64,000 nt of DNA from Hahellaceae bacterium (GTDB lineage Bacteria > Pseudomonadota > Gammaproteobacteria > Pseudomonadales > Oleiphilaceae), in assembly GCA_024234575.1 (NCBI GenBank), contig JACKOB010000007.1:124001-188000 (forward strand), in the 5' to 3' direction. The first letter of the stretch is position 1, and each line of letters opens with the position of its first letter. Position numbers and translations under genes: made by a program. Below the pieces are notes generated by a model. The model was not told the origin of the DNA and did not search any database. It saw only the letters and a program-made list of their open reading frames with translations. Of this stretch, positions 858 to 51,985 are shown piece after piece.

Positions 858-3476
858 TCATAATTCGACATTAATTAGATCCAACGCTTCGAATTCACCT
901 TCGCTATTGAGTATAGTCCCCCACACACGATTACTCGCCTGATGGTCTTCACCGCTAAACGTTACCAGTTCGCCAATGCCTGCATCATAACCCTGCATCA
1001 TTTTAAACTCATCGACAAGGGACTCAGTGGTAAAATATCGCCCGGCTCGACGCAACCCTTCGGCAAAAATCTTTGCCGCAATGTACCCTTCCGCCGAAAC
1101 AAAATTGGGTTCGTCATTTGGAAAGTAACTGGCTAATGCATCCCGGTATTCGATAACACCCGTTGCAAAAGACTGATAGTGAGGCACCACTTGTGAAACG
1201 ATAACGCCCTGCCCCTTGCGCACATCCCCCTCTCTTAGTTTGTCTGCTAAGGCCCGAGCCCCCACGAAAGAAACGTTAGCTAATTCACCTTTATATCCTT
1301 CGTTACGCATTTCGATGGTAAATTCTGCACTGGCTGAATAGGTCCCGACAATAATGATTGCTTCTAAGGGGGTGGCCAGGTTGCGAAAAAAATTTGCGGC
1401 ATCATGCACGACAGAGGTGTTTCTTTCGTATGAGGCGGCGGGAATATTCTCGTAATCCACGTTGTACTTTTGCAGTGCCTTAATAACTCCGGAAAAGCCA
1501 TCTTTACCGTAGCTATCATTTTGGTAAAACACACCGATGCGATCTGGTTTTACTTTTTTGATGGACACGAAATAGTGGATGAGTGCTTCTGTTTCTTGTT
1601 GGTAGCTGGCCCGGTAATTAAAGACATAACGATCCGGCGGATTATTGCGCAGCAAACTGGCTCCCGAAAAAGTTCCAAAAAGAATCATTCGCTTTTCTAA
1701 GGCTATGGGAAGTATGACCTGTGCCGTTGGGGTACCGACATTCCCTAGCATGGCTAGTACGCCAGCTTTATCTGCTAACATCGATGTGACATTGCTTTGT
1801 GCCAGGCGGGGTTCATAGCCATCGTTTTCTGCTTTTAAGTAAATCTGCCGTCCGTGCACGCCGCCGCTTTCATTTACATGCTGTAAATAGGACTCGATGC
1901 CAATTCTCATTGATCTGCCAATTTCTTTAGCCGCCCCGGTAAAAGCAGCACTCATACCAAGATTGATGTCATGTGAGCTAACACCGCGTGGTAATTGGTA
2001 ACCGTCGATGTATTCCATCCAGGCATCTGTAAATACGTACCGAACACCGGGTACAATCGCTAAAAGTAAGGACGCGAGAACGACGGATGTCATCACCAAG
2101 GACGCCAACAGTTTCCGTGAGCGGAACTTAGTATTGCCTAATGTCTTGGCTTCTGTTCCGGTAACCCCTGAACCAAAACCAGTTTTGATACCACTGGTAA
2201 AAGCGCTTTGTGAATTAAATGAGCTGGTGGGTGTCGGACGTTTTGCCGGGCCTGGACGGTCATTAATCAGGATGGGCTGAATAACACCTGGTTCGGTGCG
2301 ATCAGTTCGGGGTCGAGATCTGGCTTTAATGATTCGGGTCGCGTCCGCTACTTCTTCTATAAAACCCGAACAACCACAGCCTATAAACTTATCTGACAGT
2401 TCTTTTGCCTCACTGTCCGATAAATCCTTTTTGACGATAACCCGCTTGCCACAGAATAGTTTGTCGGCAATGGCCGCTGTCAGCGAGAATTCTTTTGTAA
2501 GGTTCTTCTTTGCTTGCTCAATATTCGTTTTTTCATCTGTCTTACCGGTAAAGACAAACTGATAGCGGGTAACTACATTGCTATCGGCAGCACCCTCCCA
2601 GTCGGCGTCACTGGCGCTTTGAGAGTGTGCTAATTGAATGAGTTCATCCCAAAGTGCCATCACCGTTGGATAGCGCTGTTCGCGGTCACTATGCATAGCC
2701 TTGTTAATGATGCCTTGCAACTTGAGGCACCGAGGGTCAACGATCTCCATGGGGTCTAATGTGGGGGTGCCATCGCCCATTTGTTTTGACAGGATAATTT
2801 CCCGGCTGGCACCGCTAAAAGGTTTTTTACCGGCCGCCATGTAGTAGATTAAAGCGCCTATCGCGTAAATATCTGCCCTTGGGTCGATGTCGAGTCGACC
2901 TTCTATTTGCTCCGGAGCAAGAAATCCGGGCGTACCCATGATCATACCCAGGCGCGTATGCTTTAAATCTTCTTCTGACAACGGTTTACTAATACCAAAA
3001 TCCAACACCTTTACGACTGTCGTGTCGCCTGTTAGCCGGGAAATCATCACGTTGTTTGGTTTTAGGTCCCGGTGCACGACTTTCAGTTTATGGGCGGCAT
3101 GAATTCCTGCACACAATTGTTCGAGAACCCAAAGCACTTGTGGAAATGGCAATCCGTGCTTGTCGTCGACTATTTCGTCAAGTGTGTGACCATCAAGGTA
3201 TTCCATTGCCAGGTAGACAATGTTGTCTTCTGTTTTGCCAAAATCGACGACGTTGACAACATTCGGGTGATTAAGCTGGCTGTTTATTCGTGCTTCTCGG
3301 AGAAAAAGATTAATAAAATCCTCATCTACAAACCCCGGACGCAATACTTTTAGCACCACTAAGCGGGATAAACTGAGTTGCGTCGCGAGGTATACCAGGC
3401 TCATACCACCGTCTGCCAGCAGTTGCTCGACATGGTAGGCACCGTTTATAACCTGTCCGGTTAAATCATCTTTCAT
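858..3476 (-). CDS. Membrane Ser/Thr protein kinase with periplasmic substrate-binding sensor domain
   Basis: The 872-residue protein has four parts. Residues 10-285 are a Hanks-type kinase with Lys43, the catalytic loop HRDLKPNN (135-142), DFG at 159-161 and APE at 187-189, so it looks active. Residues 305-376 match a small domain, often seen in gammaproteobacteria, that resembles the ribosomal L7/L12 C-terminal fold. A single membrane span lies near 456-475. Residues 503-872 are a type I periplasmic binding domain like the branched-chain amino acid receptors (LivJ/Peripla_BP_6). The topology suggests an extracytoplasmic ligand sensor that drives a cytoplasmic kinase. The ligand and substrates are unknown. 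It is transcribed alone, opposite to its neighbours. Family assignment is firm; the signalling role is inferred. Confidence 0.9.
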   Translation of the reverse strand: MKDDLTGQVINGAYHVEQLLADGGMSLVYLATQLSLSRLVVLKVLRPGFVDEDFINLFLREARINSQLNHPNVVNVVDFGKTEDNIVYLAMEYLDGHTLDEIVDDKHGLPFPQVLWVLEQLCAGIHAAHKLKVVHRDLKPNNVMISRLTGDTTVVKVLDFGISKPLSEEDLKHTRLGMIMGTPGFLAPEQIEGRLDIDPRADIYAIGALIYYMAAGKKPFSGASREIILSKQMGDGTPTLDPMEIVDPRCLKLQGIINKAMHSDREQRYPTVMALWDELIQLAHSQSASDADWEGAADSNVVTRYQFVFTGKTDEKTNIEQAKKNLTKEFSLTAAIADKLFCGKRVIVKKDLSDSEAKELSDKFIGCGCSGFIEEVADATRIIKARSRPRTDRTEPGVIQPILINDRPGPAKRPTPTSSFNSQSAFTSGIKTGFGSGVTGTEAKTLGNTKFRSRKLLASLVMTSVVLASLLLAIVPGVRYVFTDAWMEYIDGYQLPRGVSSHDINLGMSAAFTGAAKEIGRSMRIGIESYLQHVNESGGVHGRQIYLKAENDGYEPRLAQSNVTSMLADKAGVLAMLGNVGTPTAQVILPIALEKRMILFGTFSGASLLRNNPPDRYVFNYRASYQQETEALIHYFVSIKKVKPDRIGVFYQNDSYGKDGFSGVIKALQKYNVDYENIPAASYERNTSVVHDAANFFRNLATPLEAIIIVGTYSASAEFTIEMRNEGYKGELANVSFVGARALADKLREGDVRKGQGVIVSQVVPHYQSFATGVIEYRDALASYFPNDEPNFVSAEGYIAAKIFAEGLRRAGRYFTTESLVDEFKMMQGYDAGIGELVTFSGEDHQASNRVWGTILNSEGEFEALDLINVEL

Positions 3477-3722
3477 TGCAGGCTCATTTCAATTAACTGA
3501 AATAAGTGTAGACACCAGACCATTATCTTCCCAACCCTGTTTTTGTCGATTGTTAACGAAAATTTTGCCTGGCGTTAACGCAACGTTACGAACGAGGCTG
3601 GCACTTTCGCGGAATTAGACCTTTAATATAGAGACAGTTGAATAAACATATTCATTAAGCGTGTAATAATTCGGCGCTAACCTGCTAATTTATTAATTAA
3701 TATAAAAATTAAGGTGCGTTAA

Positions 3723-22145: not shown

Positions 22146-24206
22146 ATGGGTTACTCTTTCGGCACTCTTAGTCATGGAACAGGCGTCATTGTATATGGCT
22201 TAATCTGCCTGCTACTGTTAAAAAGCTACCTTCGCCGCAATAGTGACCGCACCCTGCTTTTGGCGTGTTTCGTTACACTAATCTGGATGGCATCGCTAAC
22301 CATACAGTCTGTTACCGGGTTTCCGTCGTTTCATGTGCGCTACGCTATCGAAATAGTTCGCAACCTTTCATGGATATTCGTTTTACTCTCGATATTTAGT
22401 TTTATTGAACAAGATCATCCCCGCCGTTTAACAACGAAACACATTCGCACAGGGGTTGTGGTTTTTTATGGCATCATATTTACTTCAATTTTAGTTGAAG
22501 GCTTTTCTGGTATTCCTCTGATCAATGGCAAAGTGTTACTCACGACACAAATCGCGTCTTCGGTTATTGGTCTCATGTTGTTAGAGCAAAGCTGGCGAAA
22601 CTCTTCCACGTATGGCCGCTCCAGCGTCAAATATCTGTGCATCGCCATCTGTTCGATCTTCGTTTATGACTTCCTGATGTATTCCGATGCTTTGTTGTTT
22701 GGTCAGATTTCCGACTCCATTTGGGATGCCCGTGGCGCCATTAATACATTCGTTGCGCCTCTCATTGCTATTACGATGGTAAATACGCGCAAGCAACCCG
22801 TTTCTGTGCAAGTCTCGCGGCAAATGGTGTTTCACACCGGCACATTGTTTCTTGCTGGTGTATATCTTTTGGCAATCTCCACTGGTGGTTACTATGTGCG
22901 TACCTTTGGCGGTACCTGGGGAGAAGCCTTACAAACTGTCTTCTTTTTCTGTGCTTTTATCTTGATGGTTTTGTTAATAGCCAGTCGAGGTTTTCGCGCT
23001 AAGCTAATGGTATTTATAAGTAAAAATTTCTTTGATTATAAATACGACTATCGGGACGAGTGGCTGAAGAGTACAAATTTGTTAGTGGATAGTGTCGAAA
23101 AAACGCCTCTGAAAGAGCGTGTTATTCAGGTATTGGCAGGCTTAGTCGAAAGCCACAGCGGCGCATTGTGGCTAAAGCGCGATAACAGCGGCTATACCGC
23201 CCAGTCTTATCTAAGTAGTCGCGCGATCCGTAACAATCACGTAGATGAAACATCAGAGCTGATAACGTTTTTTAAACAATCGAATTGGATTATTGATCTA
23301 AAAGAATATTTTACCGACCCAACTAAATACCATTTGCTCGAAATACCTGATTGCATCAGCAAAATGGATCATCCTTGGCTGATCGTTCCTCTATACAACA
23401 GTAATAGTGTCTTCGGCTTTGTGGTAATCAATGAGCCGATTACTAAAATGGAGCTCAATTGGGAAAACTACGACTTAATTAAAGTGGTAGCCAGCCAGGC
23501 CAGCAGTTTTCTGGCCCAGAGTCAGTACCAGGAAGACCTGGCACAAGCGCAACAGTTTGAGGCGGTTAACCGCACTTCCGCTTTTATGGTGCATGACCTC
23601 AAAACCATTATCGCGCAGTTATCACTTCTTACTAAAAATGCGCATAAATTTAAGTCGAACCCCGCTTTTATCGAAGATATGATCAAAACTACGGAACATA
23701 CTGTTGATAAAATGCAACACCTTTTGCAGCAAATTCGTAATCCAACAATTCAGCATGAATTACAGACAGTTGATATTGTCGAACTATTACACAAAGTGTG
23801 CGAGGCGCAAAAAAAGTTTAAACCGGCGCCCGCATTTGATTGCAAAGAAAAATCGCTAAAAGTTAAAGCCGATTACGATCAGTTGTTTATGGTTATCGGA
23901 CATGTCATACAAAACGCACAGGATGCCACGCCGAAGACCGGCGAAGTAAAGGTCAGTTTAAAGAAAGCAAAGGGTATGGTTTACGTGTTTATTCAGGATA
24001 ATGGAACCGGAATGTCGGAAGACTTTATCCGAGAGCAACTTTTCAAACCCTTCGTAAGCACAAAAGGACTAACGGGAATGGGCATTGGTGCCTATCAATC
24101 CAGGGAATACCTGAAAAAAATAGGCGGTAACATTGAGGTTACCAGCGAACCAGATGTAGGTACCTGTTTTACCCTGCATATTCCCGTAGACTTTCGCCAT
24201 ACCTGA
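22146..24206 (+). CDS. prsK: XrtA/PEP-CTERM system histidine kinase PrsK
   Basis: The 686-residue sensor kinase has an N-terminal block of about eight hydrophobic helices (residues 5-290), a GAF-like domain (about 315-460), a histidine phosphoacceptor in MVHDLKTI (His483) and a HATPase with NAQDATP, DNGTGM and GMGIGAYQS. This architecture, next to a PrsR-type regulator, identifies PrsK, the kinase of exosortase A loci. It should phosphorylate PrsR in response to an unknown membrane or envelope signal. No clear ribosome binding site precedes the ATG. About 100 bases separate it from prsR, consistent with an operon. Confidence 0.9.
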   Translation: MGYSFGTLSHGTGVIVYGLICLLLLKSYLRRNSDRTLLLACFVTLIWMASLTIQSVTGFPSFHVRYAIEIVRNLSWIFVLLSIFSFIEQDHPRRLTTKHIRTGVVVFYGIIFTSILVEGFSGIPLINGKVLLTTQIASSVIGLMLLEQSWRNSSTYGRSSVKYLCIAICSIFVYDFLMYSDALLFGQISDSIWDARGAINTFVAPLIAITMVNTRKQPVSVQVSRQMVFHTGTLFLAGVYLLAISTGGYYVRTFGGTWGEALQTVFFFCAFILMVLLIASRGFRAKLMVFISKNFFDYKYDYRDEWLKSTNLLVDSVEKTPLKERVIQVLAGLVESHSGALWLKRDNSGYTAQSYLSSRAIRNNHVDETSELITFFKQSNWIIDLKEYFTDPTKYHLLEIPDCISKMDHPWLIVPLYNSNSVFGFVVINEPITKMELNWENYDLIKVVASQASSFLAQSQYQEDLAQAQQFEAVNRTSAFMVHDLKTIIAQLSLLTKNAHKFKSNPAFIEDMIKTTEHTVDKMQHLLQQIRNPTIQHELQTVDIVELLHKVCEAQKKFKPAPAFDCKEKSLKVKADYDQLFMVIGHVIQNAQDATPKTGEVKVSLKKAKGMVYVFIQDNGTGMSEDFIREQLFKPFVSTKGLTGMGIGAYQSREYLKKIGGNIEVTSEPDVGTCFTLHIPVDFRHT

Positions 24207-24306: not shown

Positions 24307-25662
24307 GTGATTAAAAAACTGCTTATAGTTGAAGATGATCCTGGCCTGCAAAGTCAGATGAAATGGTGCTTCGAAGACGTCGAAGTGCACGTTGCCGATG
24401 ATCGGGAGTCTGCACTCTCCCTCTTTAGACGTGTCGAACCCTCCGTCGTGACCCTCGACCTGGGGTTGCCACCAGACCCCGGCGGTTCAAGCGAAGGGTT
24501 TCGTACCCTCGAAGATATCTTGCGCCTTTCTCCCTCTACTAAAGTCATTGTCGTGACCGGTCGAGAAGAAAAAGAAAATGCGGTCAAAGCAATAGGTATG
24601 GGTGCAAGTGATTTTTACCAGAAACCCGTAGACGCAGACATATTGTCGTTTGTAGTCAACCGCGCATTTCGCCTTGCAGAGCTTGAAAAAGAAAATCAGG
24701 AACTAGTTGAAAGCCAGCCAGCAACAAAGCTGAAAGGCGTGATCGCCAGCAGCCCTGAAATGCTGGAAATTTGCAAAACCATTGAGAAAATTGCGCCGGT
24801 TGATCTAACGACTTTGATTCTCGGTGAAACAGGCACGGGCAAAGAACTGCTAGCCCGGGCGATTCATGATAACAGCCTGCGTAAAAACAAAGCATTTTCT
24901 GCTATCAATTGCGCAGCTATCCCAGAAAATCTTCTCGAGAGCGAACTCTTTGGACACGAAAAAGGTGCCTTTACCGGCGCCACAGCGCAGAAAAAGGGAA
25001 AAATTGAACTCGCTGATGGAGGCACGCTGTTCCTGGATGAAATCGGCGACATGCCGCTGCCACTGCAGGCTAAAATGCTGCGGTTTTTGCAAGAGCGGGT
25101 CATAGAGCGAGTTGGTGGGGTAAAAGAAGTACCGGTTGATATCCGCGTGGTGTGTGCCACCCATCGACAGGTGCGTGACCTAATCGATGAAGGCGCGTTT
25201 CGCGAAGATCTCTATTACCGGATAAGCGAAATCACCCTGCAGGTACCACCTCTTCGCGAAAGACATGGGGATGCCATTGTAATTGCCAAAGCGATGTTAA
25301 AAACATTTGCCAAGCAGCTTGATCGAGGCTCACTCGCCTTCTCTGACGATGCCGTAAAATGTATTCAGACCTACCCATGGCCGGGTAATGTTAGAGAAAT
25401 GATTAACAAGGTGAAAAGAGCGACCATCATGAGTGAAGGCAAAAAGGTGACCGCACAAGACCTTGAACTACCTAATTGCGATGATGAAATAGGCGAGGAT
25501 TTGTTTAATCTACGACAAGTACGTGAAGAAGCCGAGAAAAAAGCCATTCGCCAGGCCCTTGAAAGCTCTGAATACAATATGTCCCGCGCGGCGAAGTTAC
25601 TCGGGGTGACCCGGCCAACGCTGTACAGTCTTACAGACAAATACAATATGACTGTGCAGTAA
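24307..25662 (+). CDS. prsR: PEP-CTERM-box response regulator PrsR (sigma-54 activator)
   Basis: The 451-residue protein starts at GTG with CGGAG upstream. It has a receiver domain (1-125, phospho-acceptor Asp51 in TLDLGLPP), an AAA+ domain with Walker A GETGTGKE (173-180) and GAFTGA (220-225), the loop that contacts sigma-54, and a Fis-type HTH (about 420-448, MSRAAKLLGVTRPTLY). This is the NtrC-class layout of PrsR. It should activate sigma-54 promoters of PEP-CTERM genes after phosphorylation by PrsK. A matching promoter is present at 37391-37405. Confidence 0.93.
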   Translation: MIKKLLIVEDDPGLQSQMKWCFEDVEVHVADDRESALSLFRRVEPSVVTLDLGLPPDPGGSSEGFRTLEDILRLSPSTKVIVVTGREEKENAVKAIGMGASDFYQKPVDADILSFVVNRAFRLAELEKENQELVESQPATKLKGVIASSPEMLEICKTIEKIAPVDLTTLILGETGTGKELLARAIHDNSLRKNKAFSAINCAAIPENLLESELFGHEKGAFTGATAQKKGKIELADGGTLFLDEIGDMPLPLQAKMLRFLQERVIERVGGVKEVPVDIRVVCATHRQVRDLIDEGAFREDLYYRISEITLQVPPLRERHGDAIVIAKAMLKTFAKQLDRGSLAFSDDAVKCIQTYPWPGNVREMINKVKRATIMSEGKKVTAQDLELPNCDDEIGEDLFNLRQVREEAEKKAIRQALESSEYNMSRAAKLLGVTRPTLYSLTDKYNMTVQ

Positions 25663-34852: not shown

Positions 34853-37123
34853 ATGTTAACCACAGGGCAGATTTCAAAAATCTTAGTAGATAAAAGCCTG
34901 TTTTTTTTTCTGGCCAGCCTTGCTTTAATCGCGGCGTTGGTAACTGGTGCAGGAAACTTATATTTCGAAAGTGACTATAAAATCTTCTTTGACAAGAATA
35001 ACCCGCAGCTTTTAGAACAGGATGAAATAGAGGACACCTACACAAAGTCCGATAATATTACGCTTGTTGTCTCTACCAGTGCGAAAGATCTGTTTAATGA
35101 AAAAGACCTCAGTACCCTGCTTGATATAACCGATCACGCTTGGACACTACCTTACTCCATCCGCGTAGACTCCTTAACTAACTTCCAAAATACCTATGCA
35201 GAAGGCGACGATTTAGTCGTCGAAAACCTTGTGCCAGATACTCTCAGCAATATCGATTTGGATCAGTTAAAAAAAACGGCACTATCGCAAATTGAACTCG
35301 TAGATTTCGTTCTTTCAGCGGATGCAAAAACCACCTCGATTACAATTTTATTGCAATTACCTGACGATAAATTCGAAAAGGATGCGGCCACCTATAAGGC
35401 GATTTCCGCTGCAAGAGAGCTGATATCGAAAGTAGAAAGTGAACGTCCTGAACTCAAACTATTTCTACTTGGCCAAACCACCGTCAATGTTACCTTTAAT
35501 GAGCTCTCCCAGAGAGATAGCGGGCTTTGGTTTCCCATTATGTTTCTGATCATGGCGGTGCTGTTGATTGTCCTGTTACGATCTGTTTCAGGTATGTTTT
35601 GTACTCTCGTTATTATCGCCACCAGTGTTGCCTCTACACTTGGTACCATGGGCTGGTTTGGCTTACCGTTAAATCAAATTACTGCAGCATTACCTGTCAT
35701 TATTCTAACGCTAGCCGTTTGCGATTGTGTGCATATTTTAAATAACTACTATTTTCACCTGGCCGACAACCAAGATAAGGCGACAGCACTCTCAAATTCC
35801 CTTACAACAAACTTCCAGCCTGTGTTTCTTACAAGTTTTACAACGGTCATCGGATTTTTAAGTATGAACTTTAGTGATACGCCACCGCTGAGGGATTTGG
35901 GTAACTGGGCAGCCGTTGGCGTTACATTTGCCTATATATTTAGTCTAACGGTACTCCCTTTTATTGCCTTAAAGCTTCCAGCGAAAGGCCGCAAACAAGC
36001 GCATAGCGATTGGAGTGATAGATATACTCATTGGCTACTTTCAAATAAAAAATCTTTGCTGATCGGGTTTGTTTTAGTTGTCGTAGGCTTGCTATCTCAA
36101 ATTCCAAAAAATGAACTTAACGACAATACAATAGGCTATTTCAAACAAAGTGTGCCCTTTCGCCAAGCAGCCGATTTTATGCAAGAAAACCTAACCGGGT
36201 TTGATATGTTTAGCTACTCGCTAACTTGCAATGAAACAAATTGCGTCAACGACCCTGCTTTTTTAAACAACGTACAAACTTTTGTTGATTGGTTAGAAAA
36301 GCAGCCCGAAATAGTGCATGTGGTCAGTTACACAGACATCATCAAGCGTCTCAATCGAAATATGCATAACGGTGACGAAAAATTTTACACTATCCCGGAT
36401 ACCCGTGAACTGGCCGCGCAATATCAGCTTCTCTATGAGCTATCTCTACCTTTTGGCCTTGATTTAAACAACATCGTAAACGTCGACAAATCCGCATTAA
36501 AGATATCAGCCATTATTAAAGGGCAAAAAGCGCAGCAATTATTAGAAATTGAAGACCGCGCCGGCGCCTGGTTGCAAGCCAATCATCCTGATTTACATTC
36601 TCATGGCACCGGTATTTCCATTATGTTTGCTCATCTAGGCCAACGAAATATTTATAGTATGATCTCAGGCTCCCTCATCGCGTTGGTTCTAGTGACTTTG
36701 ACGTTGATGATCGCTTTACGCTCAGTTAAATATGGCCTAATTAGCCTTATTCCCAATTCATTGCCAGCTGCAGCCGCTTTTGGTGTTTGGGGGATGTTAA
36801 TGTCAGAGGTAAACGTCGCTGTTGCTGTTGTTTTCTCCTTCACGCTTGGGATTATCGTTGATGACACTGTTCACTTTTTAACCAAGTACCTCCGGGGGAT
36901 AAACGAGTTAGGTAAGAACTCCCTGGAATCCGTGTCTTATGCACTGTCTGTAGTTGGTAAATCAATTGTTATTACAACCGTTGTACTTGCAGCGGGTTTT
37001 TCGGTGCTTGCGTTGTCAGACTTTAACGTTAATGCCTACATGGGCGCGATGGTCGCGTTGACTATTGTTATAGCTCTCGTGCTTGATTTGGTGTTGCTGC
37101 CATTAATCTTAATGAAACGATAA
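34853..37123 (+). CDS. RND/MMPL family exporter
   Basis: The 756-residue inner-membrane protein has two copies of a six-helix module, each after a large periplasmic loop (about residues 35-215 and 430-610). The helices carry VCDCVHILNNYYFH and IVDDTVHFLTKY, the acidic proton-relay motifs of the MMPL/hopanoid-type RND branch. It probably moves a lipid or hydrophobic compound by proton exchange. It is the only gene between terminator-bounded prsT and the PEP-CTERM gene. A run of nine T at 34901-34909 encodes Phe residues near the N-terminus. Confidence 0.88.
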   Translation: MLTTGQISKILVDKSLFFFLASLALIAALVTGAGNLYFESDYKIFFDKNNPQLLEQDEIEDTYTKSDNITLVVSTSAKDLFNEKDLSTLLDITDHAWTLPYSIRVDSLTNFQNTYAEGDDLVVENLVPDTLSNIDLDQLKKTALSQIELVDFVLSADAKTTSITILLQLPDDKFEKDAATYKAISAARELISKVESERPELKLFLLGQTTVNVTFNELSQRDSGLWFPIMFLIMAVLLIVLLRSVSGMFCTLVIIATSVASTLGTMGWFGLPLNQITAALPVIILTLAVCDCVHILNNYYFHLADNQDKATALSNSLTTNFQPVFLTSFTTVIGFLSMNFSDTPPLRDLGNWAAVGVTFAYIFSLTVLPFIALKLPAKGRKQAHSDWSDRYTHWLLSNKKSLLIGFVLVVVGLLSQIPKNELNDNTIGYFKQSVPFRQAADFMQENLTGFDMFSYSLTCNETNCVNDPAFLNNVQTFVDWLEKQPEIVHVVSYTDIIKRLNRNMHNGDEKFYTIPDTRELAAQYQLLYELSLPFGLDLNNIVNVDKSALKISAIIKGQKAQQLLEIEDRAGAWLQANHPDLHSHGTGISIMFAHLGQRNIYSMISGSLIALVLVTLTLMIALRSVKYGLISLIPNSLPAAAAFGVWGMLMSEVNVAVAVVFSFTLGIIVDDTVHFLTKYLRGINELGKNSLESVSYALSVVGKSIVITTVVLAAGFSVLALSDFNVNAYMGAMVALTIVIALVLDLVLLPLILMKR

Positions 37124-37181: not shown

Positions 37182-37376
37182 TTTACATGATATTTTCTAA
37201 CGTTAATGGATAAAAAATAAATATCGCTGCTGTTCCTTATACTATCGTAGTAAAACTATTGCTGAGTATCGAGGCACTAGTAGATTATGTCGAATTATTT
37301 TACATGATGCACTATTGGTTGTTTTCTGCATTGTACAAATAAACAAATAAATATATATATATCAATAACATGTAAA
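37182..37376. promoter_or_regulatory. Three TTTACATG elements upstream of the PEP-CTERM gene
   Basis: TTTACATGAT occurs at 37182-37191 and 37298-37307, and CATGTAAA (the inverse) at 37369-37376. They lie 15 to 209 bases upstream of the sigma-54 promoter, where an enhancer-binding protein such as PrsR would bind. The AT-rich stretch at 37360-37372 (TATCAATAACATG) partly fits an IHF site. This is inference from position and repetition; the 340-base gap holds no gene. Confidence 0.35.
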
Positions 37377-37390
37377 TGTTTGTGTTTTAT

Positions 37391-37405
37391 TGGCACACTA
37401 CTTGC
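37391..37405 (+). promoter_or_regulatory. Sigma-54 promoter of the PEP-CTERM gene
   Basis: TGGCACACTACTTGC fits the -24/-12 consensus (TGGCAC-N5-TTGC) exactly. Transcription would begin near 37416, about 48 bases before the ATG. PrsR, encoded 13 kb upstream, has the matching GAFTGA activator domain. Confidence 0.85.
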
Positions 37406-37463
37406 CTAACCAAAGACACCTAGTAACTAGATGATACAAATAAAACAACCCGAGGTTTTGAAA

Positions 37464-38411
37464 ATGAAAATTAAGAATTTGTTATTGACAAGTGCGGTGG
37501 TGGCCGCTTCTGCCGCAGCTAACGCATCTCCTATATATATTGATTTGGGTGCTGGCAAGGATTTTAATGGCGATGGTGATGGACAAACTGGCGTTTTTCA
37601 GCAGCTTGGCTATACCGGAACATTGGCTACCTCAATTTACGCATTAGACGTAACTGACCCTTCCAATCCACAGTTGGCTGGTACGGTTGTTGATACCAAT
37701 ATTCAGTCAGTGATGGATGCGTATGGGTTCGGCGCTATCGCAGGTACTGCAAACCCAGTTGGCGGAACTAACGGAACGCCACTTAAATTCCAATACCCTG
37801 CTTTCCCAGCACAGAATGGATTTAACGCGTTGAACCCATTGTGCAACCCTGAGGGCTTTAGCTGCTCCGATGACACTGAAAGATATGGTGATGACTGGAT
37901 TTTGAGTTACGAGTATGTGCTTGAGGGTACTGTATCAGTAACAGATATCTCATTCACAAGCGGTTACTTCAACGTTTTCTATCACGACAGCACTGGTGTT
38001 TCATTTGAACAGGTGGCAAAGATCAGCGTAACTGGTTCACAGTTGCTGCCAGCCAACTTGAATATTATGGGTGAAGTTACTTTCGATTTCGATGGTGACG
38101 GCATTGATAATGACGCATCAGCGTTCGCGAAAAACTTTATGCATGATGCAACTACTGGTACATCGTTTTACGATATCTGGACAACTGGTGGCGATAGCGC
38201 TATTAGCTTCCTGATCGATACTAACGTAAACCCACCAATTCCTAATCCAGCATCTTTGGTTGTTACTACCGATGGAGCCGGTGGTATTTACGGTATTCGT
38301 CAGTCTACATTAGATGGCAGTGCTGAATTTAACGTCCCAGAGCCAAGTTCAATCGCTCTGTTGGGCTTAGGTCTGTTGGGCTTAGGTGCTACTGCTAGAA
38401 GAAAAGCGTAA
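37464..38411 (+). CDS. PEP-CTERM sorting domain protein
   Basis: ATG 37464 is chosen because GAGG lies eight bases upstream and the signal peptide begins here (MKIKNLLLTSAVVAASAAANA). The 315-residue secreted protein ends with the exosortase sorting signal: PEP at residues 292-294, a hydrophobic helix (IALLGLGLLGLGA) and the basic tail ARRKA. The middle has Asp/Gly-rich strands and a cysteine pair (PLCNPEGFSC), as in cell-surface PEP-CTERM proteins. It should be cut and anchored by the exosortase, which is not in the window. A sigma-54 promoter precedes it and a terminator follows. Confidence 0.93.
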   Translation: MKIKNLLLTSAVVAASAAANASPIYIDLGAGKDFNGDGDGQTGVFQQLGYTGTLATSIYALDVTDPSNPQLAGTVVDTNIQSVMDAYGFGAIAGTANPVGGTNGTPLKFQYPAFPAQNGFNALNPLCNPEGFSCSDDTERYGDDWILSYEYVLEGTVSVTDISFTSGYFNVFYHDSTGVSFEQVAKISVTGSQLLPANLNIMGEVTFDFDGDGIDNDASAFAKNFMHDATTGTSFYDIWTTGGDSAISFLIDTNVNPPIPNPASLVVTTDGAGGIYGIRQSTLDGSAEFNVPEPSSIALLGLGLLGLGATARRKA

Positions 38412-39502: not shown

Positions 39503-39754
39503 ATGAGTTTACTTAAATCCCTCTCTCAAAATAAATACGTGGGGAAATTAATAGGGGGTTTTGTTTCAAATAGAGTCAATAAAGAAGTTGAAACCATTAC
39601 AACGCATTTTGATCGATTTCTAGAACCTATCATAGCCATTAACCAAGATGATGTGGAGTCAGTATATAAAATTCGACACAGCGTTTATTGCGACGAATTG
39701 AAATTTGAGGCCCCTAAACAAAGTGGCATGAATATAACCTGTAAAAATATATGA
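39503..39754 (+). pseudogene. Truncated N-terminal fragment of the exosortase-associated acyltransferase
   Basis: The first 76-78 codons are nearly identical in DNA to the start of the intact gene at 40910 (LLKSLSQNKYVGKLIGGF and VSNRVNKEVETITTHFDRFL). Homology stops at SGM, after which unrelated bases give a stop within nine codons. The intact relative is 280 residues, so the catalytic part is missing. It appears to be the broken half of a duplicated ThiF/acyltransferase pair. Confidence 0.85.
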
Positions 39755-42501: not shown

Positions 42502-43189
42502 TTACTTAACCTCGCAACAGATAGCGCCAAAGTACCGCGATCACTTAGAAGTGCACGAATACTGGTCGATAGCGAGAGCAGAAAACAAAACCTGTTGCGA
42601 CTACCACTGAGAGGCAATTGAGTGTCTGATAACAGACAGGAGTTTATAAAAAATAAAGTAGTATAGCTTTTGATAGATGCGCGATTTTTTAATATAACGA
42701 GCAAAATAGCTTCCCCTATTTGCAAATATTCTTCTGAATAGTAGACGACCGGACGCACCAATCGTATTCAAACAAAAGAGTTATGCCTCGCACAAATTTA
42801 AATAAATCTAATATTCTTTTTTTTATCACTGCTTGGCTATGTATTATTATCTAAGCAGTTGTTTATTATTAATAACAGCGAAGCCAGTCTAACGAAACTT
42901 TAATAGCATGTGAATAGCGTTTCTATTTATTTCAGTCTTAAAATGCATAATTATTAGCCAATTTTGGAATATTAAGCAAACTGTAAACTAAGTTGACGCC
43001 TTTAACTAAAGTGCGTGTTAGGTAAGTCGGTTTGTGAGTCAGAATCGGCGATCAGGGCACTCTTTGCAGTAGGCAGATTGTTTTTAACTTGGAAGAGGGA
43101 GGTTTTTCATATTAAGGCGAGTCTTTGCTGTACAAGAGTGGCGGCCCTTCACACATTTTTAATATTGTTTACACTATAATGTTCGCAAA
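42502..43189. other. Long intergenic region
   Basis: About 690 bases upstream of the Tat-protein operon, AT-rich, with no convincing gene. It contains a run of eight T near 42817, an inverted pair ACTGCTT/AAGCAGT (42828-42834 and 42853-42859) and a CATGTGAA element near 42907 that resembles the TTTACATG elements at 37 kb. A minus-strand frame at 42498-42761 was judged non-coding. It may hold enhancer sites for the sigma-54-like promoter at 43190. Confidence 0.4.
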
Positions 43190-43204
43190 TGGCATATAAT
43201 CTGC
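43190..43204 (+). promoter_or_regulatory. Sigma-54-like promoter of the Tat/PqqD/HprK operon
   Basis: TGGCATATAATCTGC keeps the essential GG and GC with the correct 10-base spacing (TGGCAT-N5-CTGC), with two mismatches to consensus. It lies 82 bases before the ATG at 43287. If real it would tie this operon to PrsR-type activation. Confidence 0.5.
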
Positions 43205-43286
43205 TTCATATCTCTTAAATTAGATTTTACTAGAGTGTTTTGTAAAAATTACTGACACACTCTTTCAACGAGCCGGGTTGTAAATA

Positions 43287-44060
43287 ATGGACGATCGAAA
43301 AGAGTCAAAAACAATGAATGAACAAAAACTGCCCAATGGATTGAGTAGAAGAAATTTAATTCGTGGTATGTCGGCTGCACCGATCGTACTATCTGTTTCC
43401 AGTCGTCCTGTTTGGGCTGCTGGCTGTACAATATCTGGCCACTTATCAGGGAATTTATCAAACCCTCAAGATACTGACTGCACTTCTCAGGCAGAAGGCA
43501 AGTCTCCAGACTACTGGTGCAAATGGAAAGAAATATACGACCTTTTGAAATCAGTTCACTGCGCGCCTTGGGGTCAGTGGGATGGGCTAAGTCAAGATAA
43601 TATCGATGCACTTAATCTGCAATTCGGTAAATATAACATGGGCGAAGGCACCGCAATAAACGTGCTTTATAACTGGAGTGTCGCTGCAAGCGCCAATACA
43701 GACGGCCGTATTAATTTGCACCCCACTGACGCATCAGGGCAAATCACTTCTTCCGGTAGCTCTATATGCAATACAGGCAATCAAGTTGATCGACACATGA
43801 CAGCAGGCCTGTTGTCAGCAGCGCATCCATCAATTAACTTTCCGTATAGCGCAAGTGAGTGGACTGTTAGCTACATGCTGGATAAGTACCTGTCCCCAGT
43901 CTCTGGTGAACCGCAAGCACTTGATAACCTGTTACGAAGCTTCTTTACAAGCCACGCAGAGCCAGGGTTAATGAACTTGGCTTCAGGTGCGGGTATCTCT
44001 AGTGCATCAGCCGCATATACTTGGGCGATTAATTATTTGAACTTGAACGTTCAGTGTTAA
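43287..44060 (+). CDS. Tat-exported hypothetical protein, first gene of the HPr-rel-A-like operon
   Basis: The 257-residue product has a twin-arginine signal (LSRRNLIRGMSAAPIVLSV, likely cut after PVWA) and six cysteines in the mature part (AGC, TDC, YWC, VHC, SIC and the final QC). No known domain was recognised. An ATG nine codons later is an alternative start. It is the first gene of an apparent operon with a PqqD-like protein, an HprK-related kinase and a nucleotidyltransferase, so it may be the substrate or output of that system. Export as a folded protein suggests it is modified or loaded in the cytoplasm first. Confidence 0.65.
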   Translation: MDDRKESKTMNEQKLPNGLSRRNLIRGMSAAPIVLSVSSRPVWAAGCTISGHLSGNLSNPQDTDCTSQAEGKSPDYWCKWKEIYDLLKSVHCAPWGQWDGLSQDNIDALNLQFGKYNMGEGTAINVLYNWSVAASANTDGRINLHPTDASGQITSSGSSICNTGNQVDRHMTAGLLSAAHPSINFPYSASEWTVSYMLDKYLSPVSGEPQALDNLLRSFFTSHAEPGLMNLASGAGISSASAAYTWAINYLNLNVQC

Positions 44061-44085
44061 AATCGCTGTCATTGGGTGGCTAGTC

Positions 44086-44361
44086 ATTCAACTAAAAATA
44101 TCGGACTACGTTCTTGATTGCATAAAAGACTGGGGTGATGAGCTTATTGTTTACCACCCTTTTCTTGGTGAAACCATGATGCTCGACGGTGTGCTAAAAG
44201 CTGTTTTTTTACAGCTGGCGAATGCACCACATACCGTTAACGAGCTTTTGGGTAATTTAGAAATTTCCGCTCTTATCGATCACCTCTCCGCCACGGAACA
44301 GCAAGAATATCTTAACTCGATAGTGAATGAACTGCTGCGAAAAGAACTTATTATCCAATGA
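44086..44361 (+). CDS. PqqD-like peptide chaperone (HPr-rel-A type) with non-standard start
   Basis: The conserved PqqD-type region begins well before the first ATG (44176): the frame reads SDYVLDCIKDWGDELIVYHP then FLGETMMLDG and a helical tail. From the preceding stop at 44044 to 44176 there is no ATG, GTG or TTG in frame. ATT at 44086, with GGTGG upstream, is the best of several rare starts; ATC 44062 or ATA 44098 are others. The protein is then 91 residues. PqqD proteins bind a precursor peptide for modifying enzymes. It overlaps the kinase gene by four bases (ATGA), so the two are translationally coupled. Confidence 0.65.
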   Translation: MQLKISDYVLDCIKDWGDELIVYHPFLGETMMLDGVLKAVFLQLANAPHTVNELLGNLEISALIDHLSATEQQEYLNSIVNELLRKELIIQ

Positions 44362-45269
44362 CCTCTAACGATTCGGATAGCATTCGCAAGCAAATGCAAA
44401 GTGGCTATGTTTTTAAAAATGGTCCGTTCAATCTCTCTCTGAAAACTAACGAATCTAACGTTTTAGAGTCTTTTACCAGACTCTACCCGGCATCCCAATC
44501 AATTAGTGAAAGCGAGTTTATCGACTTCCACATAACGATTCAGTGCCCATCAGTTTTAAGGCGTTTTTATCGCCCTCAAATTCAGTTTGTTCTGGATGGA
44601 ATATCCCCTTTCAAACCACTGCCCCGGCACGAGTCTTTTCCACTGTTTGAATGGGGATTAAATTGGTGTGTGGCGACCCATGCCCATCAGTATTTCATGC
44701 TGCATGCCGCAGTGTTAGAAAAAAACGGTTTGGCAGTAATAATGCCAGCCCCGCCAGGCTCAGGAAAGAGCACATTATGTGCAGAAATGGCATTTAGTGG
44801 CTGGCGATTGTTGTCTGATGAGTTTGCGCTGATAAACCACGACACCCTAACCCTTACTCCCTTTGTACGACCAATCAGCTTAAAAAATGCGTCCATCGAT
44901 ATTGTGACGCAAAGACATTCTGATGCAGTGGTTGGTAGTATCGTCCACAATACTTCCAAAGGGTCGGTTGCACACCTGCGTCCGCTGGATAAATGGTTTA
45001 GCCGACAGGATGAAACGGCTATTCCTAAATGGGTTATATTTCCGCGTTATCAGCCTGCCGCTAAAATTGCCACCTCGAAATTAACTAAAGCACACGGCAT
45101 GATGAACATAATCAGCAATAGTTTTAATTATGCCGAACTTGGCAGCTTAGGTTTTAAACTTGCCGAAAGGCTGACGGAAATATGTGATTTCTACGATTTG
45201 ACCTATTCAAATCTTGACGAAGCGATGGATTTTTTTAATACCTTGTCAGCCAGTGCAGAAGGTAAATAG
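44358..45269 (+). CDS. HprK-related kinase A
   Basis: The 303-residue protein has a Walker A loop PAPPGSGKST (130-139), preceded by a hydrophobic strand (GLAVIM) and followed by LLSDEFALI with Asp154, the catalytic acid of HPr kinase-type enzymes. The N-terminal third is unlike classical HprK. It fits the HPr-rel-A kinases found beside a PqqD-like protein in exosortase-bearing genomes. The phosphoacceptor is unknown and no HPr protein is nearby. It is coupled to both flanking genes. Confidence 0.85.
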   Translation: MTSNDSDSIRKQMQSGYVFKNGPFNLSLKTNESNVLESFTRLYPASQSISESEFIDFHITIQCPSVLRRFYRPQIQFVLDGISPFKPLPRHESFPLFEWGLNWCVATHAHQYFMLHAAVLEKNGLAVIMPAPPGSGKSTLCAEMAFSGWRLLSDEFALINHDTLTLTPFVRPISLKNASIDIVTQRHSDAVVGSIVHNTSKGSVAHLRPLDKWFSRQDETAIPKWVIFPRYQPAAKIATSKLTKAHGMMNIISNSFNYAELGSLGFKLAERLTEICDFYDLTYSNLDEAMDFFNTLSASAEGK

Positions 45270-45270
45270 C

Positions 45271-46374
45271 ATGGATGTTCTGTTAACGCAGTTTCTTCGC
45301 TACCCGGCTATTGCTCAAAACTTTTCAATAAAAGAGTGGGAGTTACTTTACCGCCAGTCCAAGTCTGCGCAACTTACGGCAGCAGTCTGGGATTTGTTAC
45401 AGCAATTCGGGCTTACAGATAAGGCCCCACCAAAAGCGGTAAATCATTTCTATTCCCAAACACTGTTAGTACAACGGCAAAATGCCTTTATCCGCTTTGA
45501 ACTGGAAAAGGTGTATAAAGCCATAGGCCGCGTTGAGCAAAACATCATTCTTCTAAAGGGTGCAGCTTACCTGTTGTTGGATTTACCCTTTGCCAAATCG
45601 CGCAGAGTTGCCGATATTGACCTTTTAGTCAGCAAAAGTAATCTCCGTGAAGTTGAAAAAGAATTGATGTTTTACGGCTGGATTAAAACCAAAACAGATA
45701 ACTATGATGACATGTACTACCGTGAATGGATGCATGAAATCCCGCCTCTAAAGCACATAAATCGTGGTTCGGTGCTTGATGTTCATCACAACATATTGCC
45801 AGTGATTGCTGGCAAGGCACCTGACGCCAGAAAGTTAATCAACCAGTCGATAAGGTTAAGTAATCACCCTTTTTGCGTGCTGAGCCCAGCAGATATAGTT
45901 TTACACTCCGCTTGCCACTTGTTCCACGAAGGAGAGTTTGAGAAAGGCGTCCGGGATTTGTACGACCTGCACCAGTTGTTTAACTACTATGGCAACAATG
46001 AAGAGCAGGTTTCTTTTTGGGATGAGCTGTTAGACAGGGCGATAGATTTAAAACTAACGCAACCATTGTTTTTTGCTGTTCGTTATTCGCACTTATTATT
46101 TGGGACACGTATACCCCAGGACATACTGCAGAAAACCCAATCGTTAATGGCCAATAAAGTGCAGGTGTTGATCTATGACTTCCTGTTTACCCGCATTTTT
46201 GTTCCCCACCACCCCAGCACCAAAAATATTGGATTCAGTATCGCGAGATTCTTTCTTTATTGGCGGTCTCATCTGATCAAAATGCCCTTAAGGATTCTGA
46301 TCCCGCATCTTATTAAAAAGTCTATGAAGGGATTTACTGAGAAAAAAGCCAAAGATAACAAAATTGAAGTTTAA
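45271..46374 (+). CDS. Nucleotidyltransferase-fold family protein
   Basis: ATG 45271, with AGAAGG eight bases upstream, is preferred to the longer frame that overlaps the kinase gene. The 367-residue product belongs to the NTP_transf_5-type family: ILLKGAAYLLL and RRVADIDLLV form the nucleotidyltransferase core, with the DxD acid pair in DIDLLV, followed by a mainly helical C-terminal half including HSACHLFHEGEF. Such proteins are usual partners of PqqD/HprK-related kinase genes. The reaction is unknown. It is the last gene of the operon, one base after the kinase stop. Confidence 0.8.
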   Translation: MDVLLTQFLRYPAIAQNFSIKEWELLYRQSKSAQLTAAVWDLLQQFGLTDKAPPKAVNHFYSQTLLVQRQNAFIRFELEKVYKAIGRVEQNIILLKGAAYLLLDLPFAKSRRVADIDLLVSKSNLREVEKELMFYGWIKTKTDNYDDMYYREWMHEIPPLKHINRGSVLDVHHNILPVIAGKAPDARKLINQSIRLSNHPFCVLSPADIVLHSACHLFHEGEFEKGVRDLYDLHQLFNYYGNNEEQVSFWDELLDRAIDLKLTQPLFFAVRYSHLLFGTRIPQDILQKTQSLMANKVQVLIYDFLFTRIFVPHHPSTKNIGFSIARFFLYWRSHLIKMPLRILIPHLIKKSMKGFTEKKAKDNKIEV

Positions 46375-48210: not shown

Positions 48211-48450
48211 TTACAGCTTAGAATCCACAAAGGCAACGAGACTGCCTACCGTTTCAAACGTCTCGGCGCTAATTTCATCATCTTCAACAAACACGCCTAA
48301 GCTGTCTTCTAAAGACGTAATAACGGTTACCACAGCCATAGAATCGAATTCTGGTATTGAACCCAGCAATGCGGTGTTTTCATCCCAACCGGCCACATCC
48401 GTTTGAAGTGTTTCTTGTAATACGGCCAATACCGAATCAATGGTGCTCAT
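48211..48450 (-). CDS. Acyl carrier protein
   Basis: The 79-residue acidic helical protein has the phosphopantetheine site FDSMAV with Ser37. It is the first gene of the ACP-hydrolase 2-hydrolase 1 operon, with AAGGAAG upstream. It could receive the acyl group made by the exosortase-associated acyl-CoA ligase at 27786. It is divergent from housekeeping AcpP, so a dedicated role is likely. Confidence 0.9.
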   Translation of the reverse strand: MSTIDSVLAVLQETLQTDVAGWDENTALLGSIPEFDSMAVVTVITSLEDSLGVFVEDDEISAETFETVGSLVAFVDSKL

Positions 48451-48744: not shown

Positions 48745-49035
48745 ATGCGCCCTTCTATAGCACTTGACCAGAAACGTAAGGCTGTCCGGGATGCAACGAA
48801 ACGCTTCCACACGACAAATCCACGGATTTTTGGATCAGTACTGCATGGAACAGATCAAGAAGGCAGCGACCTTGACCTGCTGGTCGATGCTCTCCCCGGT
48901 ACTACACTGTTCGACTTAGGTGGATTACAAGTAGAGCTTGAGTCCCTGCTGGGTATTCATGTTGACCTATTGACCCCGAATGATTTACCCGTGAAATTTC
49001 GTGACCAAGTTCTTGCCGAGGCTTTGCCTATATGA
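48745..49035 (+). CDS. mntA: MntA-type antitoxin (minimal nucleotidyltransferase)
   Basis: The 96-residue protein has GS at 30-31 followed by ten residues and DLD (42-44), the GSX10DXD signature of MNT AMP-transferases. In HEPN-MNT systems this protein adenylylates and silences the HEPN RNase toxin. Its end overlaps hepT by four bases (ATGA). Confidence 0.9.
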   Translation: MRPSIALDQKRKAVRDATKRFHTTNPRIFGSVLHGTDQEGSDLDLLVDALPGTTLFDLGGLQVELESLLGIHVDLLTPNDLPVKFRDQVLAEALPI

Positions 49036-49388
49036 ATGAAAATCGATTAGTCGACTATCTTGAGCACATGCGACAAGCTGCGAAAGATGCTAGCGACTTT
49101 GTAGATGGATTGGACAAAGATGACTTTCTGAAAGATAAGCGTACTCAGCAAGCGGTTATTATGAGTCTGATTATTCTTGGTGAGGCTGCAACAAAAATCA
49201 TGGACAACTATACTGATTTTTCACAGGCGCACCCTATAATCCCCTGGCGTAATATGCGCGGAATGCGAAACCGTATCGCCCACGGCTATTTTGACATCAA
49301 CCTCGAAGTAGTATGGGACACTGTTCAACTTGCCTTGCCGACATTATTGATACAACTCTCCTCCATTCAGGATAAAGATATCATCTAA
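49032..49388 (+). CDS. hepT: HepT-type HEPN RNase toxin
   Basis: The 118-residue helical protein ends with RNRIAHGY (79-86), matching the RX4HXY nuclease motif of HEPN toxins; the following Tyr is the usual AMPylation site. It forms a type VII toxin-antitoxin pair with the upstream MntA. The order antitoxin first, toxin second is reversed in some known pairs. Confidence 0.9.
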   Translation: MNENRLVDYLEHMRQAAKDASDFVDGLDKDDFLKDKRTQQAVIMSLIILGEAATKIMDNYTDFSQAHPIIPWRNMRGMRNRIAHGYFDINLEVVWDTVQLALPTLLIQLSSIQDKDII

Positions 49389-51156: not shown

Positions 51157-51176
51157 AATAACTCGCAGGGCTCATG

Positions 51177-51491
51177 ATGGAACACTTCGGAATAAGAGAA
51201 CTTAGAAACAACATAGGGCGATATGCTGCAGAAGCTGAAGCTGGCTCTATTAGCATTATTTCTAAAAACGGCAGCCCGCTGACCGTAAACATTCCCTTTG
51301 ACAGCACACTAATTAACCTGGGTGTAAATAAGTCTATGGCGGTAAAACTGTACAACGAAGGTGTTCTCACTTTGGCCAAAGCTGCAAAGCTATCTGCCAT
51401 GACAATGGATGATTTTATATCTTTGCTGGGCGCTGCAGGGATATCTGTTATGGGTTACGACAGCTCAGAATTGGGCGAAGAATTCGAGTGA
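51177..51491 (+). CDS. Phd/UPF0175-like antitoxin
   Basis: ATG 51177 has AGGG six bases upstream and is preferred to 51174. The 104-residue protein looks like a fusion: residues 1-40 (GIRELRNNIGRYAAEAEAG) match the Phd/YefM DNA-binding fold, and residues 50-95 (MAVKLYNEGVLTLAKAAKLS) match UPF0175-type sequences. It overlaps the next gene by four bases (GTGA), as expected for an antitoxin-toxin operon. Confidence 0.75.
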   Translation: MEHFGIRELRNNIGRYAAEAEAGSISIISKNGSPLTVNIPFDSTLINLGVNKSMAVKLYNEGVLTLAKAAKLSAMTMDDFISLLGAAGISVMGYDSSELGEEFE

Positions 51492-51985
51492 ACACCCAAG
51501 TGATTATAGTCGCAGATGCGAGCCCTTTAATCGCTCTATCAACGATGGGTATATTACAACACCTACCCTCGCTGTTTAGCAAAGTCTATGTTCCAGATGT
51601 CGTGCTTAACGAATGTTCAGAAGACTTGTCAAAACCCATGGCAATGGAAATACAAATAGCTGTTGACTCAGGGATTTTGCATGTCAGGCAGGTGACTAAC
51701 ACAAAGGGGATGCACGAACTCTCACAAGTGCTTGATGATGGCGAGGCAGCCGCGATCATGCTGGCAAAAGAACTAAGTGCGTATATTTTAATCGACGAAA
51801 AAGCTGGGCGCCTAATAGCTAAGCGAGAAGGCTTAAAACTCAAAGGAAGTATGTACTGTCTGGTCGAATGTAAAAAGAAAGGTTTGATTGATTCAGGGTT
51901 AAACAGAATTCAGTTACTAAAAGAAAAAGGTTACTACTTAGATAACAGTCTTGTCTCAGCCGTCCGTACCATGTGCGGCGAGTAG
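51488..51985 (+). CDS. DUF3368/PIN-like toxin
   Basis: The 165-residue protein starts at GTG, coupled to the antitoxin. VADASPLIALSTMG, PDVVLNEC and DDGEAAAIMLAKEL provide the acidic residues of a PIN-type nuclease as found in DUF3368 proteins. It is probably the toxic RNase partner of the upstream Phd/UPF0175-like protein. Confidence 0.8.
   Translation: MNTQVIIVADASPLIALSTMGILQHLPSLFSKVYVPDVVLNECSEDLSKPMAMEIQIAVDSGILHVRQVTNTKGMHELSQVLDDGEAAAIMLAKELSAYILIDEKAGRLIAKREGLKLKGSMYCLVECKKKGLIDSGLNRIQLLKEKGYYLDNSLVSAVRTMCGE

Follow-up and report, generated by a model that had tools for sequence, protein, structure and literature searches.

What do a kinase of the HprK type, a PqqD-like protein and a nucleotidyltransferase act on when they are encoded directly behind a protein exported by the twin-arginine translocation (Tat) pathway? 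This question is raised by four co-directional genes, preceded by a sigma-54-like element, at positions 43190-46374 of a 64,000-nucleotide stretch of a Hahellaceae bacterium genome (contig JACKOB010000007.1, positions 124,001 to 188,000; the whole stretch is hereafter the window). Across sampled Pseudomonadota, the Tat protein and the kinase, mostly accompanied by the PqqD-like protein and the nucleotidyltransferase, are nearly inseparable, and we consider it fairly probable that the set is a dedicated protein-modification cassette for the Tat protein. The genes are as follows.

43287-44060, plus strand: Tat-exported partner protein and candidate substrate (257 residues, twin-arginine signal)
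44086-44361, plus strand: PqqD-like peptide-binding protein (putative ATT start; TIGR04353, 30.6 bits, E 5e-7, below the cut-off of 35)
44358-45269, plus strand: HprK_rel_A kinase (TIGR04352, 362.5 bits against a cut-off of 200 in the NCBIfam scan; P-loop; SDE)
45271-46374, plus strand: NTP_transf_5 nucleotidyltransferase (PF14907, 157.9 bits against a cut-off of 31.2 in the Pfam scan)

The original prediction, made from this DNA alone, described four genes in one direction of which the last three are coupled or nearly so, and the coordinates and profile matches agree: the PqqD-like open reading frame (ORF), ending at 44361, overlaps the kinase start at an ATGA (44358), and a single base separates the kinase end (45269) from the nucleotidyltransferase start (45271).

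The Tat protein and the kinase occur together

The association was examined from both sides. An alignment of 12 relatives of the Tat protein, scanned against a genome collection, yielded 74 loci selected by the Tat protein alone, with neighbourhoods spanning 10 kb or less on each side; the genera represented include Alteromonas, Paraglaciecola, Marinobacterium and Rheinheimera. Within these neighbourhoods the kinase was found in 73 of the 74 loci and the nucleotidyltransferase in 72; the gene order was mostly Tat-PqqD-kinase-nucleotidyltransferase, with the Tat gene following the nucleotidyltransferase in about a dozen. The genome of the exceptional locus (L037) does have a kinase and a nucleotidyltransferase, but on a different contig, whose end they occupy. 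In the opposite direction, the TIGR04352 cut-off was exceeded in 61 of 398 Pseudomonadota genomes; 199 of the 398, with some weaker match, were excluded from this count. Fifty-nine kinase loci (L075-L133) were inspected, the other two genomes being one already represented in the Tat-first set (G002, locus L010) and one in which the genes are split over contigs (G186). A small twin-arginine protein is encoded upstream on the same strand in 51 of these 59 loci, 40 of them recognised by an automatic signal rule (which flagged 41, including a chance ORF in L091) and 11 by eye (L076, L077, L078, L087, L097, L101, L115, L117, L120, L122 and L129). The rule is insensitive: of the 73 kinase-bearing Tat-first loci it recognised 56, and several partners were therefore read by eye. 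Applied to ORFs elsewhere, a comparable rule gave 67 positives among 1,727. As for the other eight loci, the partner is divergent beside the kinase in one genome (G150), lies elsewhere in the genome in six (G082, G094, G035, G138, G227 and, more weakly, G281), and is not convincingly present in G202, where the kinase is cut by the contig end. Altogether, 60 of the 61 kinase genomes, including G002 and G186, encode a small twin-arginine partner.

The partners form three alignable families, F1 (that of the window), F2 and F3, together with a few singletons, and the families are mutually dissimilar. Of the 398 genomes, 38 were matched by the F2 profile and 11 by the F3 profile at E <= 1e-5 (four F2 matches and one F3 match being partial or weak; genomes G115, G139, G194 and G281). 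All 48 genomes in their union carry the kinase, and none of the 337 genomes without an above-cut-off kinase was matched by either profile, this reverse test covering F2 and F3, not F1 (Fisher p 2.5e-50, uncorrected for phylogeny). The original prediction suggested testing whether the Tat gene always travels with the other three; with the kinase it does so almost without fail in both directions. This co-occurrence supports the proposal made there, in which either a peptide or the Tat protein would be the target of the set; the chemistry is what we infer below. In substance, that interpretation is supported.

The enzymes and the HPr question

The window kinase is a clear member of the HPr-rel-A cassette (TIGR04352, TIGR04353), with a PqqD homologue and a nucleotidyltransferase adjoining it. 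NCBIfam already names both the kinase ('HprK-related kinase A') and the PqqD model ('HPr-rel-A system'); the adjoining nucleotidyltransferase is a criterion of our own, not stated there. The set, earlier put forward as possibly undescribed, is therefore not wholly so: the kinase and the PqqD protein have names, and the Tat protein belongs to no Pfam or NCBIfam family (in NCBIfam, no match at E <= 1). To the existing cassette name the present analysis adds the near-obligatory Tat partner, its C-x-x-S tail, an argument against HPr and a promoter link. At least 7,815 proteins match HprK_rel_A among the 7,999 candidates scored, and with 61 of 398 sampled Pseudomonadota genomes the cassette is widespread; within the literature collection searched, family names, accessions and combinations of components returned no title or abstract describing the set, and nothing under its family names.

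The PGSGKST P-loop and the SDE motif are conserved in the kinase, and a P-loop is readable at all 132 kinase loci (114 by a strict pattern, 17 by a looser one and that of L097 by eye). The AlphaFold2 model of the window kinase (predicted local distance difference test, pLDDT, 92) matches phosphoenolpyruvate carboxykinase (PEPCK; E 2.6e-7) and HprK (E 1.4e-3), and by this model the fold is that of HprK/PEPCK. The PqqD-like ORF has no Pfam match; its position and length fit TIGR04353. Because no ATG, GTG or TTG occurs in its frame within 44062-44176 before the homology begins, either translation starts at an ATT or the sequence contains an error; the start is probably the ATT at 44086, behind GGGTGG. 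The PqqD profile finds a neighbour at 98 of the 132 kinase loci, and its misses include many Alteromonadales, in which a short divergent ORF occupies that position (for example, L117). The window nucleotidyltransferase carries LKG...DIDLLV by eye, and among 113 nucleotidyltransferase ORFs, 108 contain LKG and 111 contain DxD. In L097 the kinase and the nucleotidyltransferase share a single open frame of 707 residues (1438-3558 of that locus), which is direct evidence that both act together.

The nucleotidyltransferase also has a weak match to AbiEii (E 0.0026, below the cut-off), as might be expected if the cassette were a defence or toxin-antitoxin system centred on an AbiEii/MenT-like enzyme. 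Given the exported partner, the sigma-54 promoter element, the position in a PEP-CTERM locus and the fact that no candidate antitoxin was seen (PADLOC was not searched), we regard such a function as scarcely credible. A second alternative is a regulator of the PTS type. The kinase shares its fold and P-loop with HprK/P of the phosphotransferase system (PTS), and HPr (PF00381) is present in 35 of the 61 kinase genomes, so that the kinase might phosphorylate ordinary HPr or NPr to signal the metabolic state. However, its sequence scores 12.4 bits against TIGR00679, far below the HprK/P cut-off of 240, its constant partner is the Tat protein, and PF00381 was undetected in 26 of the 61 kinase genomes, some of which are drafts (the genome of the window lies outside this count). 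HPr is therefore unlikely to be the general substrate and was rejected as such, and the outcome that the original prediction had named as fatal to its view, a kinase acting on an ordinary HPr, does not hold as a general rule. A PTS-type function is thus largely refuted as the general role and appears very improbable.

The C-x-x-S tail and a proposed reaction

As read from its sequence, the window Tat protein carries SRRNLIR, a hydrophobic stretch and then RPVWA, and ends in NVQC. The six cysteines of the mature protein counted earlier are indeed there; invariance across the family is limited to C47 and C65. At its C-terminus no PEP-CTERM domain was detected (no family match at E <= 1). When 81 relatives were scanned singly against NCBIfam, seven matched TIGR01409 (Tat signal) and three another Tat-signal model, two further models each matched one member weakly, and Pfam matched one member weakly. 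The F1 alignment comprises 81 sequences (the window protein, 11 database relatives and 69 of 78 locus sequences) and has a mean column identity of 15%. Behind the signal it shows the motif C-[ST]-[VI]-S-G-x-x-S-G-N-x-S, a second Cys and then G-x-[ST]-P-G-[YF]-W. R22, C47, S50, G51, S54, G55, N56, S58 and C65 are invariant; the F1 loci were found with a pattern spanning C47-N56, and the positions free of this conditioning are S58, C65 and, more weakly, G71, P74 and W77. Second F1 copies in L038, L040 and L052 miss the search pattern yet keep C-T-I-S-G-Q-[VI]-S-G-N (three copies). In the window, the tail corresponds to the following feature.

43425-43460, plus strand: conserved tail codons CTISGHLSGNLS (residues 47-58), the predicted modification site, with Ser50 the most likely residue

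The other partners appear to carry a comparable tail at the opposite end. F2 (25 aligned sequences, with conserved C69, C83 and C158) has the C-terminus [ST]-C-W-x-S-[FL], F3 (eight aligned) has T-C-[FY]-A-S-L near its C-terminus, and two singletons have SCIVSI (L132) and SCLNSF (L140). The pattern [ST]C..S[FLI] lies within the last 30 residues of 47 of 49 non-F1 partners, 41 of which are beside the kinase and eight elsewhere, unlinked ones included (one of the 47, L101/L139, is a short frame of 110 residues); the same pattern was found at this place in 10 of 5,774 other ORFs of at least 100 residues and in none of 78 F1 proteins. The motif was itself a criterion in sorting F2 and F3, but its absence never led to the exclusion of a flagged partner, and homology served to identify the unlinked copies; a second F2 copy in G198 is left out of the partner counts. 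Among the F1-like partners of kinase-first loci, which were sorted by eye, C-x-x-S follows the signal in 7 of 10. The alignments thus support the presence of a C-x-x-S tail in nearly every Tat partner, N-terminal in F1 and C-terminal in the others, with its Ser as the predicted target. Because dissimilar Tat families mostly share this tail, we lean to the Tat protein, rather than another peptide, as the molecule that is modified.

Further observations concern the partner proteins themselves. Two different F1 Tat proteins stand in tandem in L037, L038, L040 and L052, and one cassette may therefore serve several substrates. Many F1 proteins carry, past the tail, a second signature of approximately C-x(n)-G-x-[ST]-P-G-[YF]-W, behind which K-N..W-P is often found. 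A pattern SG..SG[NDS] was tried as a universal mark of the partners but marks one family only: among the 59 kinase-first loci it matched three, and the match in L114 is due to chance. A lipoprotein reading of the first Cys, judged by eye against the lipobox rule, was rejected because the residue three positions before it is often W or A.

The AlphaFold2 model of the window Tat protein (mean pLDDT 83.8) has a confident helical domain from about residue 70, preceded by a low-confidence tail at about residues 45-60 (pLDDT 52-57 in the blocks covering 41-60), and its fold matched nothing in the PDB at E <= 0.001. The Tat pathway exports folded, often cofactor-bearing proteins, and the enzymes might accordingly fold or load their partner, with C-x-x-S and the second Cys serving as ligands or as a disulphide, as the invariant C47 and C65 of F1 and C69, C83 and C158 of F2 would allow. 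Against such a maturation role, the F1 tail is predicted to be flexible and to lie outside the folded domain, only two Cys are invariant in F1, and a kinase with a nucleotidyltransferase makes an odd maturation pair; we consider it quite improbable. It is also conceivable that the cassette modifies another peptide or a small molecule, for example a precursor of exopolysaccharide (EPS), and that the Tat protein is an exported receptor, scaffold or effector that uses the product. Consistent with this possibility, the Tat gene is unlinked in six sampled genomes and sometimes lies downstream of the cassette, and the window locus is rich in EPS genes. However, no further small ORF was noticed that accompanies the cassette, although none was systematically looked for, and a C-x-x-S tail shared by dissimilar partners would be hard to explain for mere receptors. 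On balance, a substrate other than the Tat protein seems unlikely.

Modification of the Tat protein itself can be pictured by analogy with lasso-peptide tailoring, in which the B1 proteins are, we assume, PqqD-like and the pseudomycoidin nucleotidyltransferase presumably belongs to PF14907. Such pathways likewise combine an HprK-like kinase with a nucleotidyltransferase, as in pseudomycoidin (in paeninodin, the kinase), and PMC8498205 describes HprK homologues that phosphorylate a Ser of the lasso precursor and a nucleotidyltransferase that decorates the phosphate with one or two hexoses. Because the lasso enzymes act in this way, we propose a similar chemistry here. In the cytoplasm, the PqqD protein would bind the Tat protein, perhaps at its signal peptide and tail, and present the tail; the HprK/PEPCK-fold kinase would phosphorylate the Ser of C-x-x-S (Ser50 in the window); and the PF14907 nucleotidyltransferase would add a sugar or nucleotide to the phosphate, as in pseudomycoidin. 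The finished, folded protein would then be exported by Tat, its signal being removed, and in PEP-CTERM loci the product would probably either be incorporated into the exopolysaccharide/PEP-CTERM matrix or serve to anchor it. In contrast to the lasso systems, there is no lasso precursor; beside the cassette, where a lasso system would carry its macrocyclase (C) and B2 protease, the annotated window neighbours are PEP-CTERM genes, and the partners are Tat-exported proteins of about 110-280 residues; that of the window, at 257 residues and ending in Cys rather than Ser, is not a short precursor with a C-terminal Ser.

Several observations weigh against this proposal. The window PqqD-like protein scores below its family cut-off, and the PqqD profile has no match at 34 of the 132 kinase loci. 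The co-occurrence statistics ignore phylogeny, and most of the F1 tail motif belonged to the pattern by which the loci were selected. The C-terminal C-x-x-S is absent from 2 of the 49 non-F1 partners (L106 and L120), and 3 of the 10 F1-like partners lack C-x-x-S where it is expected (L105, L119 and L122). Lasso kinases act on the C-terminal Ser of a short peptide, whereas the window motif is N-terminal in a much larger protein, and C-x-x-S could serve binding, disulphide formation or assembly, not phosphorylation. In addition, the boxes before the window Tat gene, described below, are unlike the canonical arrangement in orientation and spacing.

A more specific version of the preferred reading is that the Tat signal acts as a leader of the type found in ribosomally synthesized and post-translationally modified peptides (RiPPs), read by the PqqD protein, that a phosphosugar is placed on the Ser of C-x-x-S, and that the exported phosphoglycoprotein joins an exosortase-controlled matrix; we offer this version tentatively, as one possibility. 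If true, it would amount to a general pathway by which Tat cargo is phosphoglycosylated in the cytoplasm, C-x-x-S being a sequon at either end of dissimilar proteins. More broadly, the analysis suggests which protein and which of its residues are probably modified, connects the promoter with a known regulator and gives the cassette a biological context in flocs and biofilm matrix. Were the Tat partner indeed modified, Tat cargo would gain a pathway of protein modification, and the exosortase/PEP-CTERM system a component that is new to it.

Promoter elements and the PEP-CTERM locus

The promoter link and the setting rest on the following features of the window.

43190-43205, plus strand: sigma-54 (-24/-12) element TGGCATATAATCTGCT, 97 bp before the Tat ATG, with one mismatch to TGGCAYN5TTGCW
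43239-43259, minus strand: PrsR-box-like element (PEP-CTERM motif 1 type) in reverse orientation, between the promoter and the Tat ATG, score 22.8
42980-43000, minus strand: second PrsR-box-like element, likewise reversed, some 190 bp upstream of the promoter, score 18.8
37286-37406, plus strand: canonical PrsR-box-like element (score 22.0) with a sigma-54 element at 37391, before a PEP-CTERM gene, spacer 86 by script count
22146-24206, plus strand: PrsK histidine kinase of the PEP-CTERM system (TIGR02916, 712 bits)
24307-25662, plus strand: PrsR sigma-54 response regulator (TIGR02915, 692 bits)
37431-38411, plus strand: PEP-CTERM protein, PepA-like (TIGR02595, 26.2 bits against a cut-off of 16; floc_PepA, 47.1 bits, below the cut-off of 80)

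The sigma-54-like promoter noted earlier (TGGCAT-N5-CTGCT) is thus in place, and sites with at most one mismatch number three in the window, the other two lying inside the prsT coding sequence and 40 bp before the PEP-CTERM gene. According to PMC1569441 (Haft and colleagues, 2006), PEP-CTERM genes are preceded by a motif 1 ending in TTTACA, which is followed, after 63 nt on average, by a sigma-54 element, and this two-part upstream sequence is tied to PrsK/PrsR; the likeness to motif 1 is judged here by the TTTACA end and the spacing. Sigma-54 elements with at most two mismatches precede 56 of 72 related Tat genes (4.2 expected), and TTTACA occurs in 44 of 57 Tat upstream regions (4.3 expected). 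In 41 of those 44, TTTACA lies within a motif of consensus TGTCGGAATATTTTACAC, 50-87 nt away (sites were sought at about 44-94 nt). The distances group around 51, 62, 74 and 86, a spacing close to one turn of the helix (period 11.3-11.5), and none of 2,000 random sets was as regular, whether duplicates were removed or not. A sigma-54 element also precedes seven of nine other partner genes, a mixed set that is mostly F1-like (1.1 expected). Before F2 genes the signal is weak, and most of the elements are in unsuitable positions (13 of 25 with at most two mismatches, 2.7 expected), and before F3 genes an element was found in none of eight; the promoter claim is therefore limited to F1 and similar genes.

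Within the window itself, the box at 43239 has the best score (maxima of 20 Markov windows, 11.1-18.7), and that at 42980 is borderline against the random maximum of 18.7. Because the Tat boxes are reversed, unlike the canonical pair of the PEP-CTERM gene, these elements make co-regulation of the Tat gene with that gene likely and no more than that. Strong PrsR-box-like matches also occur at 36371, 39738, 40430 and 54991 (scores 20.2-22.6), most of them inside long ORFs and none with a sigma-54 element within 260 nt downstream.

In addition to the features above, the window encodes an acyl-CoA ligase, a decarboxylase, PrsT, two exosortase acyltransferases, the hydrolases 1 and 2 and the glycosyltransferase stp3 of the PEP-CTERM system, along with many EPS genes. 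By these genes it is a PEP-CTERM/exosortase A (XrtA) locus with PrsK-PrsR-PrsT, the exosortase itself not having been sought in the window. In Aquincola, floc formation involves the PEP-CTERM gene pepA, which depends on RpoN (PMC9850573). The Tat gene, with its sigma-54 element and the family-wide motif ending in TTTACA, resembles the PEP-CTERM genes of such systems as PMC1569441 describes them; it differs in that its product has no PEP-CTERM domain and in that 29 of the 61 kinase genomes have no exosortase match (PF09721) over the cut-off. Such a match was found in the other 32 of the 61 and in 49 of the 337 remaining genomes (odds ratio 6.5). The kinase and the exosortase share a contig in 20 genomes, in only eight of which they lie within 60 kb, and 28 of the 74 Tat-first loci have, within 10 kb, one or more of nine exosortase-A locus genes by score thresholds that we set; the linkage of kinase and exosortase is therefore partial.

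Other features of the same locus are recorded here. Between 38474 and 41752, in a duplicated pair, two minus-strand ThiF-like E1 genes (PRK08223 family) alternate with exosortase acyltransferase genes, and 39503-39754 is, by eye, a truncated acyltransferase copy. Inside the exosortase locus there are also two small gene pairs that by eye resemble toxin-antitoxin pairs: an MNT-type nucleotidyltransferase with a HEPN-like protein at 48745-49388, and an antitoxin-like with a PIN-like protein at 51174-51985. Beside the exosortase hydrolases 1 and 2, at 48211-48450, a small acyl-carrier-like protein is encoded (PP-binding, 21.2 bits).

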